DNA of 64,000 nucleotides from a candidate division SR1 bacterium (GTDB lineage Bacteria; Patescibacteriota; Gracilibacteria; Absconditabacterales; Absconditicoccaceae), in assembly GCA_026397395.1 (NCBI GenBank), contig JAPLUV010000015.1, forward strand, positions 1 through 64,000, in the 5' to 3' direction. The notes below the pieces were generated by a model, which searched no databases, was not told where the DNA came from, and saw nothing but the letters and a program-made list of their open reading frames with translations. This document shows positions 1 to 61,946 of the stretch, in pieces. A program made the translations under genes and the position numbers. How positions within the stretch are numbered: position 1 is the first letter of the stretch; the number at the start of each line of letters is the position of its first letter.

Positions 1-181
1 CATTTTCTACTGACTGAAATTCTTTGACCATAAGTTTTACGGCTTCAGCTGTTTGACCTAAGCCCATAATGTCTGAAATCTCCTGCAATCTTTTGTATTG
101 CTTGAGTTCATCCTTGTCGGGATGATTTTCTACATGTTGTGCAAAGCTCATTGGCTTGCCATAAGATTTTCCTGTGATCAT
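1..181 (-). CDS. Hypothetical protein, N-terminal part (runs off the window)
   Basis: The reading frame starts with ATG at 181 and stays open to the window edge, giving about 60 residues beginning MITGKSYGKPMSFAQHVENH. A strong Shine-Dalgarno AAGGAGGA sits 7 bases upstream, inside the last codons of the next gene upstream (stop at 184), so the two genes are translationally close. The visible part is hydrophilic, probably helical, without a signal peptide or a motif I recognise. It has no UGA codon, like the rest of the block up to 5073. Function unknown. Confidence 0.6.
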   Translation of the reverse strand, partial: MITGKSYGKPMSFAQHVENHPDKDELKQYKRLQEISDIMGLGQTAEAVKLMVKEFQSVEN

Positions 182-183
182 AA

Positions 184-684
184 TTATTCCTCCTTAATTT
201 TTTGCATGATCCACCTTCCTGTTTTGTTTACTACTTCTTTCTCTGAGAGATAATCTATGAGAAGCATCATCGCGATTCCCATTATCGAAGATAGCAATAC
301 TACAATAAACGCTATTAGTGCATTAACTAGCATCAACATAAATATTCCTATGACTATTCCAAAACTTGTAATAGCAAATGAGAGAAGTTTAAGTATGTAT
401 GATATACTTATCGTCCCACCTGCTCCTGGAGGATTTTTTTCTGATCGCCATAGAACTACTATGGTATGGATAGTGAGCGTAAAGAGTAATACTCCTACTA
501 TATCCCACCATCTACTGAGCATCCATGAAGGGAATAATTTTATAACCCAATCAAATTCGTCATACCAAAGTTTGTAAAGATACCATTTAGGAACGTTACC
601 GTTTACTAAGTAAACAATTCCCCATGCTATCGCTGTAAGTACGCTTAGCAATACTGCCAAGCGCCAATAAATTTTATTTTTCAT
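184..684 (-). CDS. Polytopic membrane protein of unknown function
   Basis: A 166-aa protein with four hydrophobic segments, near residues 7-27, 58-78, 95-115 and 118-145, so it is an inner-membrane protein. A loop containing RSEKNPPGAGG joins the second and third helices and a basic tail ends the protein. A Shine-Dalgarno AAAAGGAG precedes the ATG. I recognise no family. It has no UGA although it contains several glycines. It belongs to the standard-code-like block and lies 2 bases from the next gene downstream. Confidence 0.7.
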   Translation of the reverse strand: MKNKIYWRLAVLLSVLTAIAWGIVYLVNGNVPKWYLYKLWYDEFDWVIKLFPSWMLSRWWDIVGVLLFTLTIHTIVVLWRSEKNPPGAGGTISISYILKLLSFAITSFGIVIGIFMLMLVNALIAFIVVLLSSIMGIAMMLLIDYLSEKEVVNKTGRWIMQKIKEE

Positions 685-732
685 AATTTTTTTCTCCTTT
701 TAATTTTTTACTTTTTTTACTTGATTTAATTT

Positions 733-1137
733 TTACTTGATTAATTTTTGATAAATTTCTGTTGGGCAAGTGATATATTTTTTGGTTTCTAAGTGCATAA
801 ACATAAGCTCTGTAGAAGCTAACGCCACTACCCGACCACCTGTAGACAATTCGTACAGGAAGGTGATTTTGCGTGGAGTGAGTTCAGAAAGAAAAACTTT
901 TGTTTCGCAGGCGTTCCCAAAAGTAAGCGCCCGTTTGTATTCTATGCTATACCGGATCACCGGGAGTCCTATCTGATACTGGTATTCTAGTATATGATAG
1001 GGTACTCCAAGCGATGCCAATGCAGCAACACGTGCATCTTCACAATATAAGGCATAATGCCCATAATAGACGTAGCCCATTTGATCTGTCTCCGCATAGC
1101 GGATATGGGATAGTACCGTACAAATAAAGTCTTTCAT
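733..1137 (-). CDS. Hotdog-fold acyl-CoA/acyl-ACP thioesterase (4HBT, YbgC/FadM-like)
   Basis: A 134-aa protein of the usual size for the 4-hydroxybenzoyl-CoA thioesterase group. The N-terminal stretch RYAETDQMGYVYYGHYALYC holds the family signature: the Asp near residue 18 is the expected catalytic acid, followed by the (Y/H)xxY and EDAR part of the central helix. It would hydrolyse a thioester to free acid and thiol. It overlaps the KAS III-like gene by 4 bases in an ATGA arrangement, so translation is probably coupled and the two may act on the same acyl chain. No UGA inside; stop is TAA. Family assignment is firm, substrate unknown. Confidence 0.85.
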   Translation of the reverse strand: MKDFICTVLSHIRYAETDQMGYVYYGHYALYCEDARVAALASLGVPYHILEYQYQIGLPVIRYSIEYKRALTFGNACETKVFLSELTPRKITFLYELSTGGRVVALASTELMFMHLETKKYITCPTEIYQKLIK

Positions 1138-2144
1138 ACAATAATTTTTCGTGGGTTACGATGAGGCCATAAGGTTGCTCCGCCGACCTGTAATTCAGCG
1201 CCAAAAGCGCCCAAAATAATAGGATGATTCACATTAAATAACCCCCTCGATAGTGCATCATACAAACCAAAGAACACCGCAGGGCCAGATGTATTGCCGA
1301 TGGTTTTGATCCCATCAATATATATCTGTTGCTCTGGTATGTCATAATTTTTCATAATCGCATGAAGCATGCGTAGATTGGGTTGATGTGGGATCAGATA
1401 GTTGTGCATACTTTTGAAATCCGCGACGCTCGTCCCCGCACAGGCGAGAATATGATCTAGCACCGTGATTCCAAATTTGTAGATAGCTGGGCCATCCATT
1501 TCCAATAAGGGCAATTCATCTCTGTATACGTAAGGATTTTTCAATCTGATAGATTCCAGAGATAGTTCGTCCGTTAATAAACTTTTGGTATGAATGGTAT
1601 GAATATGGTATCCATCATAGAGCGTTTCCTCATTAGTCAGCAAAAGCACGGTACAGCCTTCACTAAATAATACAGACGTTGCTAGATTTTCTTTGTCCAA
1701 AATTCTACTACTATGATCTGCCACTACTACAAGATAATAACTTATCTTATGGTCCACCAAAAGCTGATTGTGTGCGTTGCGTAATGCTTGCAATCCGCCA
1801 CAACAACCAAGACCAATATGATCTGCGATCACATTTTTTAGTCCAAGTCTTTTGGCTACTTGTAGGGTATAGGTAGGAATCAATGTTTTCATTGTTGGAT
1901 TGGAAGATCCAAAGATGCCATCGATTTGATCGATACGAATATTATTGTGATAGAGTAGACGCTTGGCGCATGCTACGGTTATACCAATCATATCTTCATT
2001 ATCTGCCAAAAAGTGCAGTTTTGTAATGCCAGATTTTTTCTGAATCTCTGCTGGCGTCTTCCCAAATTGTGTTGCAATGTCTGCTACCGTTACCACTTTG
2101 GAACCGAGCCGACCTGTAAGTCCGATAATCAATGCTTTGTTCAT
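1134..2144 (-). CDS. 3-oxoacyl-ACP synthase III-like ketosynthase (FabH/OleA-type fold)
   Basis: A 336-aa thiolase-fold enzyme. The KAS III catalytic triad is visible: Cys114 or Cys115 in GLGCCGGLQAL, His253 in LIPHQPN and Asn284 in TIGNTSGP. It is expected to catalyse decarboxylative or head-to-head Claisen condensation of acyl thioesters. The first TGA, at 1134-1136, overlaps the thioesterase ATG (ATGA), and the C-terminus is already full length there, so TGA seems to be the true stop. Read with code 25 it would run on to the TAG at 987, adding about 48 residues of out-of-frame thioesterase sequence. No internal UGA. No clear Shine-Dalgarno. The natural product is unknown; FabH itself, OleA-like or a secondary-metabolite KAS III are all possible. 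Confidence 0.85.
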   Translation of the reverse strand: MNKALIIGLTGRLGSKVVTVADIATQFGKTPAEIQKKSGITKLHFLADNEDMIGITVACAKRLLYHNNIRIDQIDGIFGSSNPTMKTLIPTYTLQVAKRLGLKNVIADHIGLGCCGGLQALRNAHNQLLVDHKISYYLVVVADHSSRILDKENLATSVLFSEGCTVLLLTNEETLYDGYHIHTIHTKSLLTDELSLESIRLKNPYVYRDELPLLEMDGPAIYKFGITVLDHILACAGTSVADFKSMHNYLIPHQPNLRMLHAIMKNYDIPEQQIYIDGIKTIGNTSGPAVFFGLYDALSRGLFNVNHPIILGAFGAELQVGGATLWPHRNPRKIIV

Positions 2145-2159
2145 TTTTTGTTTTTTTAA

Positions 2160-2999
2160 TTAATTATTCTTTTTTCTAAATGTTGCACAGAGGCAAACAT
2201 TATTATTTTCCAACACTGCCGGATCCAAAATAGGACAGGCCTGAAAACGTAGTCCGTGTTCGGCACACAATTGTGTGATCCGTTCGTAGAACTGCATTCT
2301 GTGTGTTTTTGGTGTGGTTAGTCCTCCACCGATGTGAATCTTTTGGTATTCAGTCATCAGGTGAAAACTTTGTTTGAGGATAGGATGTGCTATCATCCTT
2401 TTTACGATGCCTACATCCGTATAATCCAAAACTGCATATGCTGCTTTGAGATATTTCGCTCCCGCATTCGCGCAAGCAATAATGGTTGATGTAAGAGATG
2501 TATCCGTATCATCAATTCCGGGGAACAATGGCATCATACATGGGACGACACGAACACCGGATGCTACTAACGAACTCATTATTTCCAAACGTTCTCGCGC
2601 TGTTGATGCACAAGGTTCAATAATATTGTTGAGTTCATTATCCAATCTACTGATGGAAATCTGAACATATACCTGAGGCGCATATTTTGCCAGAAGGTCC
2701 ATAGTACAAGTAGGAATGTAGCTTTTGGTAATAATCAAAAACTGCACGCCTTGAGGAAGAAATCTTTCCAATAGTTCATGCGATCCATCACGTGCAAGTT
2801 TTGCAAATGGATCTGAATTTGGACTTAGATAGATTCCTTTTTCTTTGAGATCTCCAGGAATGTTTGTGTGTGCTGCATGTGCTGTCTTTTTGAGCCCACA
2901 ATAGCAGCAATTCACGCTACATCCCGATGTTACATCTATCTCATAAGCGCCGATACAAGGATAATGAGATGGAACGAAACTTAGATTAGCATTGTTCAT
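2160..2999 (-). CDS. Radical SAM protein, spore-photoproduct-lyase-like
   Basis: A 279-aa protein with the radical SAM [4Fe-4S] motif CSVNCCYC near residue 27 (CxxxCxxC) at the end of the first strand. The following YLSPNSDPF and LIITKSY segments resemble the SPL/DNA-repair-photolyase-like branch. A cluster of cysteines near the C-terminus (NVCLCATF) could bind a second cluster. It would cleave SAM to a 5'-deoxyadenosyl radical; the substrate is unknown. A Shine-Dalgarno AAGGAG lies before the ATG. It sits between the KAS III-like gene and two membrane-protein genes and has no UGA codons. Confidence 0.8.
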   Translation of the reverse strand: MNNANLSFVPSHYPCIGAYEIDVTSGCSVNCCYCGLKKTAHAAHTNIPGDLKEKGIYLSPNSDPFAKLARDGSHELLERFLPQGVQFLIITKSYIPTCTMDLLAKYAPQVYVQISISRLDNELNNIIEPCASTARERLEIMSSLVASGVRVVPCMMPLFPGIDDTDTSLTSTIIACANAGAKYLKAAYAVLDYTDVGIVKRMIAHPILKQSFHLMTEYQKIHIGGGLTTPKTHRMQFYERITQLCAEHGLRFQACPILDPAVLENNNVCLCATFRKKNN

Positions 3000-3023
3000 A
3001 ATTTTTTCTCCTTAATTTTTTAA

Positions 3024-3575
3024 TTATTTTTTAATATCTGATAATAAGAAATCAGTAACCATACCACTACGATATATAGATGCGTAAGGATCATTTCCAT
3101 GTCGTAACACATATGTTAACGTGGCTGTAGAATTACCATTATAAGGGACTGAAATATTATCTAACTCCAGCGATTCCCCTGCAGATAGTATAAGTGTAGA
3201 TAAAGATGTATGGCTCCATGAACTAGGTGTAAAAGATATTGGTTCTCCCTCATTGAATTGTCGATCAAAGAACGCGATTTTTACTTCCTCCTTACCTACA
3301 TTCTTTATTCCGGTTATATAGGTTGCTCCTGCAACACCAACGCCATTTAGAAAACTAGGGAGTAATGTACATGTACTGTGTCCTACATCGTATCTTGTAG
3401 TAAATATGATATTACACTTTTGGACACTACGGATGATGACTTCTGTCTTGCCTGGTTCAGTAAAGAAGAATGCTGCTACTAGCATATAAGGAATGGCAGA
3501 TATGCATAATAACATAAGCAGACTATACCATCCTATGACTATCCAATGCCATATATTACTTAAAATCTTTTTCAT
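3024..3575 (-). CDS. Membrane-anchored protein of unknown function
   Basis: A 183-aa protein with one long hydrophobic segment near residues 10-38 and then an extracytoplasmic-looking beta-rich domain with two cysteines (QKCNIIF and STCTLLP) that could pair. The N-terminus has a positively charged residue before the helix, so the C-terminal domain is probably outside. Shine-Dalgarno AAGGAG precedes the ATG. No family recognised. UGA-free, and shares the block's gene spacing and AT-rich spacers. Confidence 0.65.
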   Translation of the reverse strand: MKKILSNIWHWIVIGWYSLLMLLCISAIPYMLVAAFFFTEPGKTEVIIRSVQKCNIIFTTRYDVGHSTCTLLPSFLNGVGVAGATYITGIKNVGKEEVKIAFFDRQFNEGEPISFTPSSWSHTSLSTLILSAGESLELDNISVPYNGNSTATLTYVLRHGNDPYASIYRSGMVTDFLLSDIKK

Positions 3576-3615
3576 AATCTTTTTCTCCTTATTTTTTTAA
3601 TTGTTTAATTTTTTT

Positions 3616-4419
3616 TTATCCTTCCCAGATTTCTACATATTCCTTAGAAACGATTTTTGCTTGGTCGAAACCAGAGAATTCGTGACTAAGAACCTCCCCT
3701 TCCAAAAGGATACAGACCATATTCTTTCCATTCAGGTATATTTTTTTGATGAAAAGAGATGATGAATCCATACTAGGTGGGACGATAGGCAATAGACCAT
3801 TACTGAATTCCAAGTTCCAATCGTAGTCAAAAAACGATCTAAACCACGAATTGTCTTCGCGATTTTGTCCCTCAAGAAAGCACTCTAGGGTATAATTACC
3901 TATTCTTACTTTAGTCTCAGGATAGCTGTATGCAAAAGCGAATCTCTTCTCTAGGTCTAGCAAAAATATCTGACTGAGCATCTGCACGTAGAGTTCTTCC
4001 AGCTTTACTCCAAAAGTTTGTACTGCTCTTTTTTTTAGGTCAGTGTCAAATTTTTTGAACCAGGCGGTTTTTTTGAACCAGGAACTGTTGAATTCCTCAA
4101 CTCCGCAAGCACCGAGAAATTCTACGATAAACACTACTATAGCAGCTACTATTTTTTCTCCTATAGTTAATTTTACTTCTGGCCAAATAACGTATATGCA
4201 TAGACCAAGAAGCCCGATTATGGCTACAATACTGTACAAAGCTAAATAGATATTTTTTCTTCTTCTCCATTTTTTCTTTGCAGTGTTGTAGAGGACCTTG
4301 ACCTTTGCTACTTCAATATCTAATGATCCCATAGTATTATTTTCTGTTCCTTTGATAACTTCGTCTTTATTGATTTGTATGCTCGAAGTCAGAAGCATAT
4401 TTTTTATAACTTTTTTCAT
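3616..4419 (-). CDS. Protein with two transmembrane helices, unknown function
   Basis: A 267-aa protein. A cytoplasmic-looking N-terminal part of about 55 residues is followed by two hydrophobic helices (about 57-78 and 86-105) and a soluble, aromatic-rich C-terminal domain. No motif recognised. It lacks a good Shine-Dalgarno, unlike most neighbours. UGA-free. It lies between the membrane-anchored protein (3024-3575) and the methyltransferase (4450-5073), all in the same direction, so an operon is likely. Confidence 0.6.
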   Translation of the reverse strand: MKKVIKNMLLTSSIQINKDEVIKGTENNTMGSLDIEVAKVKVLYNTAKKKWRRRKNIYLALYSIVAIIGLLGLCIYVIWPEVKLTIGEKIVAAIVVFIVEFLGACGVEEFNSSWFKKTAWFKKFDTDLKKRAVQTFGVKLEELYVQMLSQIFLLDLEKRFAFAYSYPETKVRIGNYTLECFLEGQNREDNSWFRSFFDYDWNLEFSNGLLPIVPPSMDSSSLFIKKIYLNGKNMVCILLEGEVLSHEFSGFDQAKIVSKEYVEIWEG

Positions 4420-4449
4420 AGTGATTTAATTTTTTTACTTGATTGATTT

Positions 4450-5073
4450 TTACTTGATTACTTTTTTAATAATTACTTGTATAATATGATGCAAATGAGG
4501 CATAGGCACTTTGTCTTCACGCAGAAATATTTTTTCTTCTACGATTTCAAAGTCCTTGAGCAATTCATAGACATCGGATTTTTTCTGATGATAATCGATC
4601 TCATAATTTTGATCGACAATCAAAAGATTAAAGTGGATAAACGCAAAGCCACCTGATTTGAGGGTGCGATGAATTTCTGATAGCACTTTTGGTGCATCTA
4701 CATAAGCCATAACGTTGATACAATAATATGCCCATTCCATTTCATCCTGTGATGGTAATTGGTGGATATCACAGGGATAAAAAGCTCCTGGCCATTTAGA
4801 CGATAGTCTAGTGACTTCCAGAATTTCTTCGTTACTGTCATACCCTATTGCATGAATGCCAGATTCGTTGAAATAATTTACATCACGACCATTTCCACAA
4901 CCTAAATCTACGATGAGCAGATTATGGGTAAAGAAGTCTGGGGTGAATTTAATGGAAGGTCTTATGAATTCCTGTTTCTTTAAGAAAGTTAGAAATTCTT
5001 CTGCGTAGATTGTTGGATGATTTTCCCAATGGGAACCATCGAAATACTTATTAAATAATGTTTGATTGTTCAT
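4450..5073 (-). CDS. SAM-dependent methyltransferase (class I)
   Basis: A 207-aa Rossmann methyltransferase. Motif I is VDLGCGNGRD near residues 55-64; the acidic residue after strand 2 is in AIGYDS; motif IV is the CINVMAYV region; a SGGFAFIHF post-IV segment follows. It transfers a methyl group from SAM to an unknown acceptor. Shine-Dalgarno GGAGAAAA precedes the ATG. It is the first gene of the UGA-free block, so any promoter lies in the 65 bases before the B12-radical SAM gene end; I see no convincing one there. Confidence 0.8.
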   Translation of the reverse strand: MNNQTLFNKYFDGSHWENHPTIYAEEFLTFLKKQEFIRPSIKFTPDFFTHNLLIVDLGCGNGRDVNYFNESGIHAIGYDSNEEILEVTRLSSKWPGAFYPCDIHQLPSQDEMEWAYYCINVMAYVDAPKVLSEIHRTLKSGGFAFIHFNLLIVDQNYEIDYHQKKSDVYELLKDFEIVEEKIFLREDKVPMPHLHHIIQVIIKKVIK

Positions 5074-5138
5074 AAAAATTTTCTCCTTTTTTTAGGTTTT
5101 GTTTAATTAATTGTTAATTATCTCTTCGTGATTTTTTT

Positions 5139-6530
5139 CTATCTATCAAACTTTCCCAAATTTTCTTTCCTTTTTTGTTCAAGGACTTGTTGGGAATCTC
5201 ATATATCATAAGGGATGATAGGTAGTGTTGTGTTGCCTGGAAGTTTGCACATCTCCAAGTAATAATAATTAACTAGATCTCTAAATGCTTTATCTGGGTG
5301 CGTAAGCTTGCTCGCCAAGGCAGTGAAGTCTAGCGATTGGAAAAGCTGTGGCTGTTGTATCAATGTAGCTACTTCTTGTTGAAACTTTGGATGATTTCGT
5401 CCATCGTTACCTGGAACAAATGGTTTTGCAATATGTGGTCTCGGCACTGCGCCATATTTCTCCACCATCGCTTGGACAAAGTCATAGGAATGTTTCAAAC
5501 TCTCTGGAGTATCGACACCTACGTGACCAAAGACCATGAGTAATTCTGGAGTGATGTTGTATTTTCCCTTCGAAACGCGAATAGCATCCAGCACATCTTT
5601 TTCGTTATTTTGTGGTTTTTTGATTCACTTCCATATTTCAGGTCACATACCATCGACTCCGTATCCTGCCGCAGTAAATCCTGCTTGGACTAATTTTTCT
5701 AGTATTTGAGGATGCTGTCTATCTAGATATACAAATGATTTGGTCCCTGCAAGTCCACGCAGATTAAATGTAAATCATGGATGCTCTTTTTGTATCTGCA
5801 ACATCATATCTGCAAATCATTCCAATTGTTTGGGTGATTGAAAAACATCGAGGTTGGACATATAGATACTAACCTTATGTTCCCCAAGTCTTTGTAACCT
5901 CTCAGCGATATAAGAGAGATCGATATACATGACCTGTGCTTCTCTATATTGCTCTTTCTGATGTTTCACTGCCGCACAGAAATCACAATCAAATTTACAT
6001 CATTGAGAAACATAGAGTGAAATTTCTTTCGTAAAATACGTCAAAAAATCTGTATCAGAAAGTTTCTCGTACATAGGAATCAATGAGACATCGTATCCAG
6101 TAGAAAGTTTTTGTATGTTGCATACTTGTTCCAAAGTACCTTCTTGCATACCGTTTACTACGTCTTCTCCAAATAAATTTTTAAACTGAACAGTATCGAG
6201 TCCCAGTGTTTTTCACATCTTGGATTGTTTTTGCGTGAGGACTTGTCATCACAAAACAAATTTTAAGTCATTTCAAAATTTACTCTTCAATCTTTGCATC
6301 ATATCTTTTACCACAGGAATATAGGGAGCTCAGAGCAAGCTGATGCCTACGGTATCTGAGCTTAATGATTCTACTTCTCCAAAGTTTTCATCATGGAGAG
6401 AAATATCTACTCCTGCATTATCGAGGATAGTTCATATCGTCCACAACGATGTGTTGGTATATATTTGCCCTTTTCACTCTTCATGTGCATATGAGTGTCT
6501 TGGTTGTATAAGGTCCATAGTAATATACAT
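5139..6530 (-). CDS. B12-binding radical SAM protein
   Basis: A 463-aa protein, full length only with UGA as Gly. An N-terminal cobalamin-binding-like domain (MDLIQPRHS, ILDNAGVDISL, TVGISLLGAPY, FVLGGQ) is followed by the radical SAM motif SQGCKFDCDFC (CxxxCxxC), in which the Gly before the first Cys is UGA, then a GYGVDG segment and a helical C-terminal part. Likely an anaerobic methyl- or ring-modifying enzyme. Start is taken at ATG 6530 (MYITMDLIQP); ATG 6518 in the same frame is equally possible. The stop is TAG at 5139; the TGA at 5199 is read through. Transcription is toward the UGA-free block but the coding style is that of the host. Confidence 0.85.
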
Positions 6531-53621: not shown

Positions 53622-54842
53622 TTATTTTACTTTCTTCGTGGTTTCGAGCTCTAAATGAGCTCTTTCTACGTCGGAGAATTTCCAGTTGAAATGGAGATTC
53701 TTTTCTCTTACAAATTCATCCAACTCTATCAAAGATTTTTTTCCGAAGTTACGGAACTTCAAAAAGTATTCTCTTGATAATTGTACCCATTGCCAAACAT
53801 ACACTATTTCTTCATCTGCACATTTCAAACAATTGAGTATTCTCACTGAAAGATCGAGGTCTATAACTTTCATTATCAACGTATCAAATGCATTGATAAC
53901 AGCTGAGTCTTCAATCTTTTCTATTATCTGTTCCTCCAAATGTTCCAGATTATACAGCTTCTGGATATACTCATTTTTCTGCTGTAATAATGCTTCGCTA
54001 TGAGCTTGCTTAAGTGATGTAATGAAGTCCCAGGCATCGCCGATAGGCTTGATCGATGGCTTTACTTTTTTTAATCGGCTTATTGCTCGCTCCTTGATTT
54101 GTTTTATTCGTTTGGGAGTGATATCAAGCTCCAGCCCAATCTGTTCTATTGTTTGAGGAGCTTTTCCATCGAGACCAAAGAATAATGTAATAACTGTTCC
54201 CGAGTTTCCGTATAAATATTCTGCGATCTTATTGTCGATATATTCGCAGATTTTTTTGGTAAGTATTGGCGCCGCAAAGCGCCTTGTTTCATCTGCACTC
54301 AATTGTATTACTTTGTGCAGGTAGTGATTATTCCCCCAAAAAAACTCTTTGGGCTGAGGAGGAGAAATCTTTCCGGAAGCTATTTGGTAAAGATACCAAC
54401 TCCAACCTAATGATTGGAACGGTATCCATATCATCAATTTTTCCAATAGATTTCGATATCCCATGGGGACATCTTCGGTGTATTTCAGCTCGGCAAAACC
54501 TTGTATTGCTGGCAATGCAAAGCTAAGTATCTGAAGAATTTTTTGTTCTTCCAGGAGTTCTGCTAATACAGATGTTAGTTTTTTGGTAAAATCCGCATCG
54601 TACACCATAGTTTTTTCACCATACGTAATGTCAGCGTAAACCTTTAGCATTGTTGGTTTAGCATCGGGAGAGAAAATAATTTTTCCTTTCCATTCACTCG
54701 TAAGTTGAACCTTTTTGATATAATTTATAACCGTGGATGGAGATATCTCCAGCACTCTTTCAATTACATCATATGACATACCCATTTCTAGGAGAAGGAT
54801 TATCCATGCTTTTTTCTTTAAAAATTCTCTGTCGTCATTCAT
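53622..54842 (-). CDS. Transcription-factor-like protein joining a sigma region 4-like and an alpha-CTD-like domain
   Basis: A 406-aa protein, no UGA. Residues about 22-45 look like a helix-turn-helix (MSYDVIERVLEISPSTVINY). Residues about 210-260 closely follow sigma-70 region 4: VITLFFGLDGKAPQTIEQIG then ITPKRIKQIKERAISRLKK. Residues about 325-380 follow the RNA polymerase alpha C-terminal domain: DLSVRILNCLKCADEEI and LSREYFLKFRNFGKKSLIEL. No sigma region 2 is seen, so it is probably not a full sigma factor. It may contact promoter DNA and RNA polymerase as an activator. Preceded by a promoter module shared with the next two genes. TAA stop. Confidence 0.75.
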   Translation of the reverse strand: MNDDREFLKKKAWIILLLEMGMSYDVIERVLEISPSTVINYIKKVQLTSEWKGKIIFSPDAKPTMLKVYADITYGEKTMVYDADFTKKLTSVLAELLEEQKILQILSFALPAIQGFAELKYTEDVPMGYRNLLEKLMIWIPFQSLGWSWYLYQIASGKISPPQPKEFFWGNNHYLHKVIQLSADETRRFAAPILTKKICEYIDNKIAEYLYGNSGTVITLFFGLDGKAPQTIEQIGLELDITPKRIKQIKERAISRLKKVKPSIKPIGDAWDFITSLKQAHSEALLQQKNEYIQKLYNLEHLEEQIIEKIEDSAVINAFDTLIMKVIDLDLSVRILNCLKCADEEIVYVWQWVQLSREYFLKFRNFGKKSLIELDEFVREKNLHFNWKFSDVERAHLELETTKKVK

Positions 54843-54890
54843 TGTTTTTATGTTTTGTCTGGTTAATAATTTCTTTTTTATTTTTTAGCA

Positions 54891-54947
54891 TTTATAGCTA
54901 ATTGCTGCCTAAAATCAAGCTAAAACATATTTCTATATTTTGTCAAG
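54891..54947 (-). promoter_or_regulatory. Promoter module, copy 1
   Basis: Minus strand: CTTGACA, about 22 bases, then TTGATT, 16 bases (with AATTAGC), TATAAA. The same order and spacing occurs at 55583-55640 and 56204-56260. Confidence 0.7.
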
Positions 54948-54970
54948 TTTAGGACTTTTTCTTATAAACA

Positions 54971-54997
54971 AAAAGCGCTCACCTAGAATAGGTGAGC
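54971..54997 (-). terminator. Terminator of the 174-aa gene
   Basis: GCTCACCTA / TAGGTGAGC perfect 9-base stem with a TTC loop, followed by GCTTTT on the minus strand. Confidence 0.8.
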
Positions 54998-55022
54998 ATC
55001 TTTTACATATGTACAGGCATTT

Positions 55023-55547
55023 TTACCTGGGAAGTCTTTTCAACCATTTATAAGAGGCGGTATACCTCCAGAATGTTCGCTCTTTACAATCTTTATAACA
55101 TTGCAATTGGATCTTCATGTCTGCTACTTCTTCTTCTCTATCAGCGATAATTTCTTCTGGAGTTTTATCTTCTTCATAGAGCAGATAAATGGCAGTTGGC
55201 TTAAATTTACCTGGAATAGCATTAAAGGACGATTTGCAAATTTGTTCGATAAGGCGGTATTCTTCTTTGATCTTTATTACATACTCATCTTCTTCTGTTA
55301 TCTTTTTGCGTAGCATTCCTTCGAGGCGATTCATATTCATGTCTCGTACTGGCTCCCAGAAGAAAAGAAGCCACAACACAATGAATACAAAACTACAAAT
55401 GATGATATCTGCCGTGCTATGCGCATTATAACGCATAATGGCGATGAATACTGCTGTTCCCAAAGCGATCTTCCATGTGGAAGCTCTTCTCTGTCTTTCT
55501 AAACTTCTTTGAAGTTCAAGTCTTTTGTCTAAATTTTGTGTTTCCAT
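55023..55547 (-). CDS. Membrane protein with two helices, 174 aa
   Basis: ATG 55547 to TAA 55023, no UGA. An N-terminal basic coiled region (LDKRLELQRSLERQRRAST) leads to two hydrophobic helices (about 26-41 and 46-66), then a long charged cytoplasmic domain with an EEIIADREEEVADMKIQLQC helix. Similar in design to the 142-aa protein at 55719-56147. Driven by promoter module copy 2. Function unknown. Confidence 0.65.
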   Translation of the reverse strand: METQNLDKRLELQRSLERQRRASTWKIALGTAVFIAIMRYNAHSTADIIICSFVFIVLWLLFFWEPVRDMNMNRLEGMLRKKITEEDEYVIKIKEEYRLIEQICKSSFNAIPGKFKPTAIYLLYEEDKTPEEIIADREEEVADMKIQLQCYKDCKERTFWRYTASYKWLKRLPR

Positions 55548-55582
55548 AATGAACGGTTTAATTTTAGTTTATCTTTTTGGTA

Positions 55583-55640
55583 TTTTTAGCTAATTTCTGT
55601 TCAAAATCAAGTTCAAATACTATTTCTTACTTTTGTCAAG
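55583..55640 (-). promoter_or_regulatory. Promoter module, copy 2
   Basis: Same TTGACA...TTGATT-16-TAAAAA arrangement as the module at 54891-54947, including AAATTAGC before the -10. Confidence 0.65.
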
Positions 55641-55663
55641 CTTATAGATTTTTTCTTATAAAC

Positions 55664-55700
55664 AAAAAGCGCTCACCTGAATTTCAAGCGAGCCCTTCTT
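55664..55700 (-). terminator. Terminator of the 142-aa gene
   Basis: GGCTCGC / GTGAGCG stem around TTGAAATTCAG, then CTTTTTG. Nearly identical in loop to 53568-53604. Confidence 0.65.
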
Positions 55701-55718
55701 AGTAGATACCTTTACGAC

Positions 55719-56147
55719 TTACAATGCCATGTCGTAAATATCGATCATAATTTGTGTTTGCGCCAGTTTTCTCTCCTGTAAACGGAGTTTTTTGACGGCC
55801 ATTGTATGTTCTTCCGTCAGATTCATTGTGTCCTGAGGCAGGTTCGTTTGGAGTACTGTTATTTCCTCCTGTATCGAAACAAGCTTTTCTTGATATCTCT
55901 TCTTTTTTACTTCAATGTTTACTTCCTCTGCTTTGAAGAGGTTCCAATCCAACAAAAACCAGCTAGCTATTGCGCCGATTCCCGCACCGATCAATATGGC
56001 CACATAATCGTGTTGGCAAATAGCAACAATTAGTCCGATGGCAGCACCCAATAGAATACATCTATTTGTAATTGTCTTTGCTATAGAAGCTTCCATTAAA
56101 ATTCTTAAGGTGTCTTTTCTTAATTTTTCTTCTTCCTGTGGTGTCAT
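55719..56147 (-). CDS. Membrane protein with two helices and a coiled-coil tail, 142 aa
   Basis: ATG 56147 to TAA 55719, no UGA. Helices about 28-45 (CILLGAAIGLIVAICQH) and 47-67 (YVAILIGAGIGAIASWFLLD), then a coiled coil of 70 residues (VKKKRYQEKLVSIQEEITVL, then AVKKLRLQERKLAQTQIMID). Shares architecture, promoter and terminator with its neighbour. Function unknown. Confidence 0.65.
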   Translation of the reverse strand: MTPQEEEKLRKDTLRILMEASIAKTITNRCILLGAAIGLIVAICQHDYVAILIGAGIGAIASWFLLDWNLFKAEEVNIEVKKKRYQEKLVSIQEEITVLQTNLPQDTMNLTEEHTMAVKKLRLQERKLAQTQIMIDIYDMAL

Positions 56148-56490: not shown

Positions 56491-58542
56491 ATGCTAGAAG
56501 AAACAAAAAATGTAGTGTATGATACCAAATATGTTAGCGAGACGGCCGTACAAGCCGTTGCTCCCGCTGCTATACCAAGTGAAACGCCCAAAAAGTCAGG
56601 TGGAAAGCTTTCCTTTTTTGATAATCTTTTTGCGTCTATCTTTCCTAGTTTGTGAGCAAAGAAAGTCGCAACAAGCACGGGAAATCCAAGTGAGCCAGTA
56701 CCAGAAAACGTAGATATCAAAGATCAAGAATTGAGAGATCAAGTCAAATACCTTCTTGAACTCCCTGATGACCAATATAGCGATAAGAAATTAACTAGTA
56801 AACTTAGACAATATATTTCTGATACGGAGAAACAGTATAGCAAAGTCATTACCTGATATAAATCACATATATCTCCATCATTTCGAGAATTTACGCCTAC
56901 ACGTTTTAATATTTCAGGACTCTTTGGAAAAACCTATTACGCACAGAGTTATCCGTCCTATATCGATGCATTACGAACAAGAGATATTCTTGGATTTCAT
57001 GCAAAGCGAGATGTGAGCTGGTTTATTTATCCAGAAGATGATGCAGCAATTCAGTCGATGTTGAAAAATAGAGTAACCCAATTGAGAGCCGAAGTCAAAG
57101 ATGCTCAGCAAAAGGGAATTACTTTAGACGTTGAAATCGAGCAGCAATACAGAGACGTAGAAATGATTAGAGAAAAACTTACGACTCGTGAAGAAAGATA
57201 TTTTGAAAGTTCTATGTATATTAATTTATATGAAGAGAACGAAGAGAAGCTCAAGGAAGAAGGCAAGAAAATTGAGCAGAAAATTTCTGGGTATGGAATT
57301 AGATTGAAAAATGCTATCCAAAGAATGGACGAAGGATTTAATAGCGGATTGCCAATGTGTATCGATGATCTAGGCATCACGAGAAGCGCAGTAACTTCGT
57401 CATTGGCTGGAAGTTTCCCGTTTATTTCCAATGATTTGGTCAGTAGCACAGGAATCTTGTATGGACTGAATTTACATACGGGCGGACTCGTGATCTTCGA
57501 TAGATTTGATGCAAAATTAACTAATATGAATAGTGTAATATTAGCTACTTCTGGTGCTGGTAAATCGTTTACCGTAAAATTGGAAGCGTTGAGATATTTG
57601 ATTAATGGACTGGATGTTATTATTATCGATCCGGAAAATGAATATGAACAACTCTGTAAAAAAGTAGGGGGAACCTATGTTCACGTATCGACGAATTCAC
57701 AGCAATTTATCAATCCATTTGATATTCCGCCAAGAATTGAAGATGTAGAATATGGCAAATGAGATCTCTTGAGAAGTCATATTATGAGCTTGATCGGCAT
57801 GATTAAATTATTGATCTGAACAGCAACGCCTGAAGAAGAAGCGATTCTCGATAAGGCTTTACAATGAGCGTATGCATTGAAAGGATTTTCTATGGATGTA
57901 GATAGTTATGAAGGGAAACAACCACCAATCATGGGTGATCTCATGAATACGCTGGAGAGCATGGATGGCGGTGACAAACTCGCATTGAGACTCAGTAAAT
58001 ATGTAAATGGAACATTTGGAAAAGTATTTAATAACTACACAAATATTGATATCAATAACAAGATGACGGTCTTTAGTATTAGGGATTTGGAAGACGCGTT
58101 GAAGGTACCAGCGATGTATAATGTTTTGAACTTTATCCGAACCAAAGTAAGAGCTCAGAAGAAGCAGAGATTCCTCGCAGTAGATGAAGCCTGGATCCTG
58201 TTGCAGAATGAAATCTCTGCAGAGTTCTTGTATGGATTAGTCAAAAGAGCAAGAAAATATGGATTATGAATAACAACTATTTCACAAGATATCGAAGACT
58301 TCATCAGAAGCGCATACGGGAAACCAATTATCTCCAACTCAGCATTACAGATATTATTGAAACAGTCTACAACCTCTATCAAAGCCTTGAACGAACTCTT
58401 GGGACTTTCGGAGGCGGAACAAAGAAGACTGGTCGCCTGTGGTATCGGAGAAGGACTTATCTTCGCGGGCAACCAACATGTCAGCGTCAAAATTTTGGCA
58501 TCACCACAGGAACAAGCATTTATAACCACTGATGTAAAATAA
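56491..58542 (+). CDS. virB4: VirB4/TraC-like type IV secretion ATPase
   Basis: A 683-aa protein. The first 130 residues are Pro/Ser/Lys rich and poorly conserved. From about 160 the VirB4 N-terminal domain is seen, with a coiled segment, then GILYGLNLHTGGLVIFDRFD, Walker A LATSGAGKSF, IIDPENEYEQLCKKVGG, FINPFDIPP, Walker B FLAVDEAWILL, and the C-terminal LVKRARKYGLGITTISQDIE and LGLSEAEQRRLVACGIGEGL. Six or seven UGA-Gly codons. It energises protein/DNA transfer or pilus assembly. Promoter and operator just upstream. The next two genes encode membrane parts that may be its partners. Confidence 0.88.
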
Positions 58543-58599
58543 AGAAAATGGTTTATCGGGAATTCGGAAACCGTTTAATCGTCTCCCGAATAAACCAAT

Positions 58600-58619
58600 C
58601 CTGCCTGCCGGTAGGCAGG
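58600..58619. repeat. CCTGCCTGCCGG palindrome
   Basis: A 20-base palindrome, CCTGCCTGCCGGTAGGCAGG, between the VirB4-like gene and the next gene. Confidence 0.7.
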
Positions 58620-58663
58620 TCCGAATAAACGAATCACTATGTTTTAATTCTCCCCTATACTGC

Positions 58664-59686
58664 ATGCAACAAATGGAAAGCAGAGATAGCAATACGACAA
58701 TGATGGCATTAGCTGCGCTTATGTTTTTTTCTCCATTTATGCATTATCTTTTGCATACATGATCATTAACGATTTCTGACCAGGAAAAAAGTTTTGTTCG
58801 AGGCTATGTAAAATTAGGATATATCAATCGAGTCTTTCTTGCTATCACTATCGCAAGTGGGATTGGAAATTATTTTGTTACTTCGACATTTCTTCGCGTG
58901 CTGTATGCGATTTGTATTGGCATTGTATTGATTATTTTGATCGTTGGATCGCTCTGTGTCTTGTCTGATGTATCGTTGAATATTACCAAAGATTTTTCCC
59001 TGACTTTCTATGAAGTGGGAGATAAAAAATCATTACTGTTAAAATTTTTGCCCATGTATAATGTCTATGCTCGATACAAGCTCCACAATTTTGGGACGCC
59101 CAATCGATGGCTGAAGGAATCGTTGATCTGGCGGACATTTTTCGTCTTGCTTGCGCTAACAGGACATCCTTTGATTCTTAGCGTCATCGTTGCATTACGA
59201 CTTCTGAGAATTACGACTCTTATGGCTGGCGTCGATGTGTTACACATTCAAGCGAAGTCAGATATTAGTAATTTATTTTTCAAAAATCCTGAAGAGATTC
59301 GAGGATATTTTACTGGTACAATTATCTTCTTGTGAAAAAGCATTGGAAAGATATTTCATGCACCAGCGACGCCAGTAAGTATTGCAAATTGTATCCAGTC
59401 TGAGAAAGATGCCTATAGTCGTTTGTATAATGTGAAAAACAATCGAAATATATGGGCTCAATACATCATTGGCTGAGGATTACTTTTCCTCTATCGATAT
59501 CTTGTGCATCCTGATTTAACACAATGGAATTATTATTTACCACTAATCGTAATCATATGAAGATATCTCATTATGTTGATCGTTCGATGATATCTTCCTC
59601 CTTTGCCACTTGCTAGAGAAATTCGAATCATACTAAGCTCACCTTTCAATTTTTTAGCTCATAAACGCGCTGATGTTCAGGCTTAA
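58664..59686 (+). CDS. Polytopic membrane protein, 340 aa (putative secretion-system component)
   Basis: ATG 58664 to TAA 59684-59686, with six or seven UGA-Gly codons. Hydrophobic segments near 15-28, 60-75, 83-105, 145-175 and 265-310; cytoplasmic loops carry HNFGTPNRWLKESLIWR and KSIGKIFHAPATPVS. ATG 58673 is an alternative start. Its position between a VirB4-like ATPase and a pilin-like protein suggests a VirB6/VirB3-type role, but I recognise no family. It overlaps the next gene by 14 bases. Confidence 0.65.
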
Positions 59687-61946
59687 CGCACACAAACAAA
59701 CTATACGATGATGGAAATTCTTTTCCGTGATGGTTTTTCTGTTTTTGTGTTTTGGATGAGTATTCGCTTATGCTCAAGATTGTCAGCTATTAGCATGATG
59801 GACTCCAGCTACGCTTACTGATGGGCATTCTTTGACTGGATATTCCAGCCCTGATGCAACCTATACCGAATCATGTACTGGGCTTCAAGGCATTATAACT
59901 TGTAATAATGGAACACTAACAAACGGGAATACCTATAGATACCAATCTTGTACTCCACATACCTGGGCAAACTGTACTACACCTAGGACAGGAAATCATT
60001 TGGAGAATAAATTGCTCTATACATTACCACAAGCTACCTATACCCAATCATGTCAGCAACTATCTCAGTCGTTTCAATGTCTCAATGGAAGTTTTACTGG
60101 GTTTAATGTTTCACTTTCCCCTTATGGTGCTTGTACGAATATCACTTGGCAACCATGTATTAATATACGAACAAATACCTATACTCCTCATGGATGAACT
60201 ATCTTTGGATATACAAATCCATCGGCTCAAAATTGTCAAAGCGTAAAAGTCAGCCTTACTTGCCAAAATCAACAACGAGTATCTGGATCTACGGTCATGA
60301 ACCAAGCAAGTTTATTCCCATCATGTGGATGAACCAATGCTTGTACGCTTCCTTGGTGAGGTGTATTAAATGATTGATTAAGCATCACCTGATATTCTAC
60401 GGTTCTCCGAGCAGTTACTTGACAGAATTATGTTGGCGGTTGTCCTTCTTATGGTGGAACACTTACCTGTACTGGTGGAGTACTTCAATGAAATGCTGCA
60501 CTCTATAAATATAGTCTTACCCAATGTAATGCTGGAACCCCACAATCCTGTCTTCTACCTCGATGAACTACATTACCTAACGGAGCAAATATTACCTGAT
60601 ATTCTACTACTGGCGTTGAGTATCCTGATACCTGTGATACTGTTGCAACGACATTAAGTTGCATCAATGGGAACCTTAATGGTAATCGACAAACCTATGC
60701 CAATCAAACGTGTTCACAATGAAGTCCACTGTATAATGGCCTGGATATAGAAATATTGTCTGGATTTACCTGATTGCCTGGTGGATGAGATGCTATAGCC
60801 CAATGATCTAGTCCTATGATCAATATCGTATTGAGAAATAATGGAACCACACTAATTAATACATCCGCAGGACCTTGATTTGTTAGTTGTACGCGACTTG
60901 AACAAAATATCAATGTATATAGCTCACCAGATATTTGAACACTCGTTATCAATCCATGAACTAAAATTTGATTGCCTATACAACTGAGTAGCATCTTTAC
61001 CCAGGTTTTGTGAAACAAAACTATTTTGTGTACCGTAACGCTCAATGGAGATCAACAAACATTTAATAATGACTGGAAAAAGGTTTTTTCTGTTGCAGTT
61101 GCCAATAGATTTGATCTTGCTATGCAGAGAAGTATTGATTCTATTAAATGAAATTTGGAACCAGCAGAATCTGCACTTGGCGTCCCGGGAGTACAAAATT
61201 TTGTCTTTACCAAAGTCATGAGTTTCCTTGTACCATTGATCGTGGTGATTGGCATCTTGATTGCTATTATATGATTTTACAAAATCATGTTTTCCGGTGA
61301 TGACAAAGCGGTCGGAGAATGAACCAAATATGTTATCTATGGACTTGTCGGGATCATTGTCATCATGAGTGCGAAATATATCTGATCAAATATTTATGGC
61401 ATCCTTACTCCGGCTAGTGGAGATCTCAAATGATTCTCCATTGCGCAAGATCTTTATGATAAACTAGCCTATCCATTTATTAAATTTGCTATCTATCTTG
61501 TCTTGGGAGCTATGTTTGTTATTCTTCTGACTCGTGTCATGTCCTTCTTGTTTGGCACGGATGCTGATGCGAAGAAGAAAGCAGGAACCTTGATTGGACG
61601 AAATATTATCGGCATGCTTGTGATTATCTGAGCTAAGCAAATTGTCGAAGCCGTCTATGGTAAATATGCTGCTGTTGTCAAAGATATCTCTAATCTCGGC
61701 GAAATTGGTTCTGGTGTATTGGCAGATAAACAAATCCCTCTTGTCTATACTGTTGTCAATCGAGTCTTAGGATTAACGTCACTCATTATATTGATTCTGA
61801 TCATCGTACAAACAGTACAATTACTCATGAAACCTAGTGATGATAAGCAAGTTACTAGCGTCAAAAATAGCTTGATGTATATGCTTATCGGCCTCTTGGT
61901 TATCGGCACGGGATATTTAATTGTGAATTTCTTAGTTATCAACTAG
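59673..61946 (+). CDS. Cys-rich secreted repeat protein with three C-terminal VirB2-pilin-like modules
   Basis: A 757-aa protein with about 27 in-frame UGA codons, invisible to standard-code callers except as fragments. Start ATG 59673 (MFRLNAHKQTIRGWKFFSVM) gives a good signal peptide ending VFAYA-QDC. Residues about 35-360 contain five or six Cys-rich repeats with the pattern LxxGxxITGYS...Cx(2-12)LTCxxGxL. A beta-type linker follows. Residues about 500-757 hold three tandem two-helix modules: FLVPLIVVIGILIAIIGFYK...YGLVGIIVIMSAKYI; IYLVLGAMFVILLTRVMSFL...IGMLVIIGAKQIV; LGLTSLIILILIIVQTVQLL...IGLLVIGTGYLIV. Each has the charged turn (SGDDKAVGE, GTDADAKKK, PSDDKQVTS) of VirB2-like pilins. 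Likely surface-exposed part of a type IV secretion-like machine. Confidence 0.75.

Follow-up and report, generated by a model that had tools for sequence, protein, structure and literature searches.

The transferred DNA (T-DNA) of Agrobacterium consists of genes that are housed in one organism and written in the expression signals of another. For Gracilibacteria and Absconditabacteria, code-11-compatible phages have been described, and a host-range advantage has been suggested for them (PMC10746230). SR1 genomes are listed as scarce in Shine-Dalgarno (SD) sites and as lacking CCUCC (PMC10783764). Here we analyse a window of 64,000 bases (positions 1-64000 of the 77,023-bp contig C19) from a metagenome-assembled SR1 (Absconditabacteria) genome of 1.25 Mb in 39 contigs, referred to as G000, in which UGA is read as glycine (code 25). 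At its start, the minus strand carries an island of eight consecutive open reading frames without in-frame UGA, and UGA-free arrays of related genes occur in other SR1 genomes. Selection very probably excludes UGA from this gene class, and the window island likely belongs to the class. With a probability of roughly one half, we propose that these are laterally acquired genes, selected to stay in the standard code since they act in a standard-code partner resembling Bacteroidota or other members of the Fibrobacteres-Chlorobi-Bacteroidetes (FCB) group.

We called genes on all 39 contigs of G000 with our own simple caller, set to code 25. The island (1-5073, Table 1) comprises 1,632 codons, of which 100 encode glycine, and none is TGA. 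Genome-wide, TGA makes up 25.1% of 23,376 glycine codons, so that the chance of 0/100 at this rate is about 3e-13. Among 670 other runs of at least 1,600 codons each, the lowest TGA share is 4.5%, which bears out the original prediction of an eight-gene island free of in-frame UGA. The other two frames of the island contain 32 and 43 TGA, close to the expected rate, and the depletion is therefore translational. Even the ribosomal-protein set of the genome uses UGA for 16 of its 210 glycines (7.6%). The codon-usage profile proposed earlier as a check gave a weaker signal: the island is only mildly atypical, with 12 of the 670 runs more so. Its codon adaptation to the ribosomal proteins lies at the 31st percentile, below the median. 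Directly beyond the island, the native stretch at 5139-6530 has 13 UGA in 37 glycine codons. We considered the UGA-rich B12-radical SAM gene there as an infiltrated copy of a UGA-free one in genome G022 and rejected the idea, as the two share 22% identity and are not orthologous.

A sister species, the SR1 bacterium from Lac Pavin (G001, JAPLUU010000014.1), carries UGA-free orthologues of g6, the radical SAM gene and g1 at 67-88% protein identity; their order is conserved, and they adjoin the same native flank gene as in G000. The g6 protein is 88% identical to its counterpart there and 62% identical to one in G003, both UGA-free with an SD leader (ratio of nonsynonymous to synonymous substitution, dN/dS, 0.15). 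The radical SAM orthologue reaches 70%, and g1 is 67% identical to a 79-residue orthologue, again UGA-free and with an SD leader. Two short peptide patterns of the radical SAM protein, searched against named genomes, matched this Lac Pavin genome only. Across the SR1 family, UGA-free homologues of the methyltransferase gene MT, g2, g6 and g7 lie nearly always in co-oriented UGA-free arrays that border sharply on UGA-rich genes: MT at 45-63% identity in G007, G022 and G031, g7 at 34% in the array on G022:C3, and g2 at 38% on G006:C66. The gene content of the arrays varies between species, and their insertion neighbourhoods recur. Close orthologues with UGA-glycine codons, named in advance as evidence against the idea of a standard-code island, were looked for. 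None of those of the radical SAM gene, g6, g1, MT and g2 carries such a codon, and UGA appears only in distant KAS III homologues at 23-28% identity. Searches of the phage, plasmid, viral and genome collections within reach, in which Bacteroidota genomes were not freely covered, returned no close standard-code relatives of the island families; the plasmid set gave nothing for the β-barrel family described below, and for KAS III only FabH homologues at 25-27%.

In order to separate recent arrival from selection, we compared the genes between species. The test of vertical descent comes from a single pair, G022 and G235, two species of genus g15 in which about 80% of glycines are UGA. In both species the array has the same two native neighbours, and its genes keep their order and orientation; its fourfold-site divergence (0.32-0.45) is that of the flanks (0.29 and 0.43). 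A syntenic gene at another locus, which encodes a tail for the type IX secretion system (T9SS), shows 0.58 against 0.54 and 0.59 for its flanks, at 69% protein identity. Since both have diverged as their native flanks did, they have been resident throughout. In shared glycine columns, UGA occurs in 0/42 of the array and 0/58 of the T9SS gene, 0/100 together. The native pairs at the same loci have 187 glycine columns; 75 of these are not UGA in both species, and 50 of the 75 have UGA in one. The proteins are under purifying selection (dN/dS 0.09-0.26 across the class genes tested, 0.09-0.15 in G022/G235).

For G000 and G001, native orthologues have 2139, 1102 and 382 glycine columns with no, one and two UGA, respectively, and UGA turnover is therefore almost at equilibrium. 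The three window genes that they share have UGA in 0/24 glycine columns, or 0/57 with two further UGA-free genes included. Native pairs have 1,102 columns with one-sided UGA and 2,082 without. Tested at matched divergence, the exclusion in the window island gives P of about 3e-4, weaker than in G022/G235. Five of 210 orthologue pairs are UGA-free in both species with at least 10 glycines each, namely EF-Tu and four members of the class. Selection for readability in two codes, one of the two explanations in the original prediction, is thus the better supported of the two for the class (0/100 against 50/75), with a weaker test for the window's own genes.

The translation-start signals of the island also differ from those of its host. 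SD sites of 6-7 nucleotides precede five of the eight island genes and 2/771 other genes in G000, and those two are UGA-free as well. This agrees with the earlier claim of strong SD sites unlike the rest of the window, here counted genome-wide. Elsewhere in the genome, SD matches are about as frequent as in shuffled sequence (5.3% and 5.1%). The 3' end of its 16S rRNA (C31:909) reads ...GACCACCACTCTAA, without CCTCC; this single fragment in the bin is thin evidence alone and agrees with the survey (PMC10783764). SD leaders are kept across genera at 46-60% protein identity, for instance AAAGGAGATCATTAAC-ATG in G007, G022 and G235. Across 49 genomes there are 10 exact copies of the leader AAGGAGRAAAAATTATG, eight of them within three arrays, and none in a reversed control. 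As to promoters, the Bacteroidota-type TTG-N-TANNTTTG is not enriched before UGA-free genes, and sites of the TTGAC...TATA type are commoner there (21/91 against 38/518). We notice that the intergenic regions of the L113 and L114 islands contain the repeats GTCATTGCGAG...CGCAATGAC and GTCATTCCGG...CCGGAATGAC as well as strong terminators, at about ten times the density of other regions or more.

The KAS III gene ends at a TGA within an ATGA that overlaps the start of the thioesterase gene, which is translationally coupled to it. As originally predicted, code 25 would carry translation on to the TAG at 987; the extension amounts to 49 residues (the UGA-glycine plus 48). The Cys/His/Asn triad aligns to Escherichia coli FabH, and the FabH domain extends to residue 323 in a protein of 336. 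The domain is complete before the TGA, which is therefore the natural end of KAS III. Code 25 in the host is supported by a UCA-anticodon tRNA (C36:56842-56915) together with an RF-1-family release factor. Stops in the island class are mostly UAA or UAG; the exceptions are KAS III and two genes in a G001 array (L099:15272-15990), which stop at TGA when read in the standard code; one of the G001 genes does so in an ATGA overlap like that of KAS III.

Table 1. Genes, SD sites and border of the UGA-free island, in window coordinates.
Feature	Coordinates	Strand	Evidence
MT: class I SAM methyltransferase, 207 aa, 9 Gly, 0 UGA, SD; first gene of the array	4450..5073	-	Pfam Methyltransf_11, 1e-12
g7: membrane protein, 267 aa, 15 Gly, 0 UGA, A-rich leader without SD	3616..4419	-	Pfam: no match
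g6: membrane-anchored protein, 183 aa, 13 Gly, 0 UGA, SD	3024..3575	-	UGA-free relatives
Radical SAM protein (Rv2578c/PA0069-like), 279 aa, 15 Gly, 0 UGA, SD	2160..2999	-	Pfam Radical_SAM, NCBIfam
KAS III/FabH-like ketosynthase, 336 aa, 27 Gly, 0 internal UGA, stop TGA	1134..2144	-	FabH family
Hotdog acyl-CoA thioesterase, 134 aa, 7 Gly, 0 UGA	733..1137	-	Pfam 4HBT_2, 2.5e-14; NCBIfam YbgC/FadM-like
g2: multi-pass membrane protein, 166 aa, 10 Gly, 0 UGA, SD	184..684	-	Pfam: no match
g1: small soluble protein, N-terminal 60 aa, 4 Gly, 0 UGA, SD	2..181	-	Cut by contig end
Junction of UGA-free array and native UGA-rich genes	5074..5138	.	Flank side as in G001
SD AAGGAG of MT	5083..5088	-	
SD AAGGAG of g6	3585..3590	-	
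SD AAGGAG of radical SAM gene	3008..3013	-	
SD AAGGAG of g2	694..699	-	
SD AAGGAGG of g1	189..195	-	

Window base 1 is the contig end, where the island is cut. Its continuation is probably the start of contig C20, to which G001 links this place and where another UGA-free gene lies. The island is thus longer than 5,073 bp, and many others like it exist. Other UGA-free genes of G000 encode proteins with T9SS tails, lipoproteins and enzymes of nucleotide synthesis. T9SS tails are encoded at C25:22649-25288 (97 glycines, 0 UGA), C30:16938 and C21:17341; the T9SS C-terminal sorting domain exceeds the curated cut-off in three genes, and in a fourth it does so in one search and falls below in the other. 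Such tails occur in 46 of 288 genomes of the class, single-contig ones (G017, G033) among them, and at family level in 29 genomes out of about 49. The T9SS genes at 20 SR1-family loci examined have 9 UGA in 817 glycine codons, and 17 of the 20 are UGA-free. A β-barrel family accompanies the arrays in 12 of 49 family genomes and is UGA-free in 11; its tree does not follow the SR1 genera. Omp85, the only component of the T9SS machinery searched for, is absent from all 49 family genomes, with positive controls detected. Lacking it, an SR1 cell would not be expected to make use of a T9SS tail, Bacteroidota-type lipoprotein and signal peptides or a porin-like barrel. The export signals indicate a diderm, FCB/Bacteroidota-like reader. 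A search of our literature library found no paper that joins T9SS and Absconditabacteria.

In four species, UGA-free PKD/T9SS-type genes lie just upstream of rpsL-rpsG and after UGA-rich giant surface proteins (G000:C25:22649-25288; L198:6144-10508; L199:8330-10291; L200:10964-15373). At L205:9679-12708, a UPF0182 membrane protein (1009 residues, 57 glycines) without UGA stands beside a T9SS gene in a genome whose glycines are mostly UGA. The UGA-free nucleotide-synthesis genes of G000 encode PurA, GuaB, PyrF (with an SD site), PyrE and PyrD (C33:390-3292, C9:4536-6175, C36:38867-39769); the best matches of PurA and GuaB in G001 contain many UGA, yet are only about 34% identical. Within the window, three adjacent minus-strand genes at 53622-56147 also lack UGA (23 glycines) and are possibly another array. 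One encodes a protein that combines a part resembling sigma-70 region 4 with the C-terminal domain of RNA polymerase alpha, and the other two encode small membrane proteins.

On the basis of these findings, we speculate on how a second gene set might be kept. Standard-code genes would enter SR1 chromosomes laterally, and SR1 would keep them legible to a standard-code ribosome, with no in-frame UGA, mostly UAA or UAG stops, and SD or A-rich leaders that are not of SR1 type. A diderm partner that reads the standard code, whether host or prey and FCB/Bacteroidota-like, would make and use their products, and this use would impose the selection against UGA, because the genes must be read where UGA is a stop. 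There, KAS III, the thioesterase, the radical SAM protein, the methyltransferase and the membrane proteins would make or modify an acyl-derived product. The SD leaders indicate that the anti-SD of the reader is active; there may be several readers, or the reader may be an FCB bacterium outside Bacteroidota. The most tentative step is that the genes might reach the partner in the form of DNA, for which the type IV secretion system (T4SS) encoded in this genome is a possible route. Native T4SS genes with UGA lie in the window at 56491-61946, including a TraG/VirB4 P-loop ATPase (PF19044, 1e-27, 56491-58542), beside which are a 340-residue protein without Pfam match and a 757-residue protein with a borderline T4SS-pilin domain; a TrwB-like coupling protein (PF10412) is encoded at C22:7356-9836. 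With the ATPase and the coupling protein, a DNA route is conceivable. In its full form, the proposal would be a bacterium-to-bacterium counterpart of T-DNA, in which SR1 passes a standard-code gene set as DNA or RNA into its host or prey, to be translated and sorted there (outer membrane, T9SS). We hold this full form only tentatively and think it somewhat less probable than its opposite.

Several observations weigh against the proposed use in a partner. Some members contain UGA, namely the G015 barrel (12/34 glycines) and the T9SS genes of G024 (5/41), G017 (3/30) and G014 (1/28). The model of the barrel family matches outer-membrane barrels at low confidence (predicted local distance difference test, pLDDT, 62). 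The TGA ends of KAS III and of the two G001 array genes mean that readability in SR1 itself is not strictly kept. No border repeats flank the island, whose only repeats are its leaders; relaxases were not searched for. The fourfold-site divergence of the window island between G000 and G001 (0.385 pooled) is below that of the core (0.60); it was therefore necessary to test UGA exclusion at matched divergence, and the island may have moved between the two lineages after their split. Moreover, SD leaders misfit Bacteroidota, whose genes mostly lack SD sites, and the reading cell may therefore be another FCB lineage, or more than one. Finally, cultivated Absconditabacteria prey on Gammaproteobacteria, not Bacteroidota (PMC11452946).

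The strongest competitor requires no selection on the code. DNA of a standard-code, FCB/Bacteroidota-like host or prey would be captured serially at hotspots and replaced before UGA accumulates. The Bacteroidota-type signals, the recurrent insertion neighbourhoods, the departure of the barrel tree from the SR1 genera and a window island that may be younger than the G000/G001 split all fit such a process. Bacteroidota have been reported as donors to Patescibacteria (PMC12455944), and the absconditabacterium Vampirococcus is reported to have 126 genes acquired by horizontal transfer (PMC8080830). What it leaves unexplained are the array and T9SS gene of G022/G235, which show native-like synonymous divergence and flanks with no UGA gained in 100 columns, and the SD leaders conserved between genera. 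We consider it rather unlikely. The recent transfer from a standard-code donor in the original prediction is partly supported: a foreign, standard-code origin is favoured by the leaders, a codon adaptation unlike that of highly expressed genes and the Bacteroidota-type signals in array relatives, whereas recency alone fails on the UGA-free sister orthologues in place and the vertical members in G022/G235. Alternatively, the genes could be phage or plasmid cargo that shuttles between SR1 and standard-code bacteria, the dual-code form being selected during standard-code passage rather than by use in a partner. Array content does differ between species, and phages without in-frame TGA that target code-25 bacteria of the candidate phyla radiation (CPR) are thought to gain host range (PMC10746230). 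SR1 prophages, however, are TGA-dense (PMC10746230), and the resident vertical copies show no decay. PHROGs matched only enzyme families of unknown or other function and no phage hallmark genes, IMG/VR held no relatives for four families, and the phage and plasmid sets gave only distant homologues for the families searched. Mobile cargo is thus improbable, and a prophage was rejected, with neither hallmark genes nor viral-contig relatives.

Explanations within SR1 or within the data carry much less weight. If UGA were avoided for the speed or accuracy of translation in highly expressed or exported proteins, one would point to the most adapted gene decile, with 13% UGA against about 25%, and to the UGA-free EF-Tu. 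Expression and export are nevertheless ruled out as drivers by the codon adaptation of the island (31st percentile) and by ordinary exported SR1 proteins, whose UGA share is a normal 27%. The G235 rpsL and rpsG genes use UGA for 7/11 and 6/7 glycines, and the SD leaders and T9SS tails would be left unexplained, which makes this account very improbable. An assembly chimera, or contamination of the bin by a standard-code genome, could be suspected from the position of the island at a contig end and a bin contamination of 3%. A chimera at 5074-5138 is unlikely: in G001, which was assembled independently, the orthologues of three island genes are UGA-free too and adjoin the same native flank gene. 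In several species, UGA-free arrays are also embedded in long contigs with UGA-rich genes on either side, and the single-contig G017 and G033 contain T9SS genes, so that an artefact as the general explanation is scarcely credible.

If SR1 does pass a standard-code gene set to a partner, this is visible only because the codes of carrier and recipient differ. A changed genetic code then acts as a built-in label, as genes meant for a standard-code cell cannot use UGA. It gives a test, from sequence alone, for symbiont genes kept for use in another cell, which normally needs experiments. The question bears on which cells SR1 lives on (T9SS-bearing and FCB-like), on how predators and symbionts of the CPR manipulate their hosts, and on whether recoding truly isolates these lineages from gene exchange.

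The arrays share features with several known systems and differ from each. Like horizontally acquired genomic islands, they have a foreign signature, variable content, recurrent insertion neighbourhoods and Bacteroidota-type genes; unlike these, they have not ameliorated to the host code despite long residence, and keep SD leaders in a host without SD use. With integron gene-cassette arrays they have in common co-oriented, mostly unknown genes with their own leaders and a content shuffled between species, but no integrase or attC-like sites were seen, some genes have their own terminators and promoters, and UGA is absent. The T9SS-type members resemble Bacteroidota substrates in their TIGR04183/PF18962 sorting tails, Sec signal peptides ending in ..AQ, and PKD/Ig and GH16 domains, and differ in that the CPR genomes encoding them use code 25 and lack Omp85, and in that UGA is nearly always missing from the genes. 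As in Agrobacterium T-DNA, another organism's expression signals are found in genes housed by SR1, with a T4SS at hand; here no borders were found, we only infer the transfer, the supposed recipient is a bacterium and the code itself differs. Closest are the code-11-compatible phages (PMC10746230), likewise code-25-associated DNA without in-frame TGA, legible in both codes and with a proposed advantage. In contrast to those phages, and to the chromosomal prophages reported as TGA-dense, the genes described here are chromosomal and non-phage, stay UGA-free through vertical descent, and carry SD or A-rich leaders together with T9SS or lipoprotein signals.

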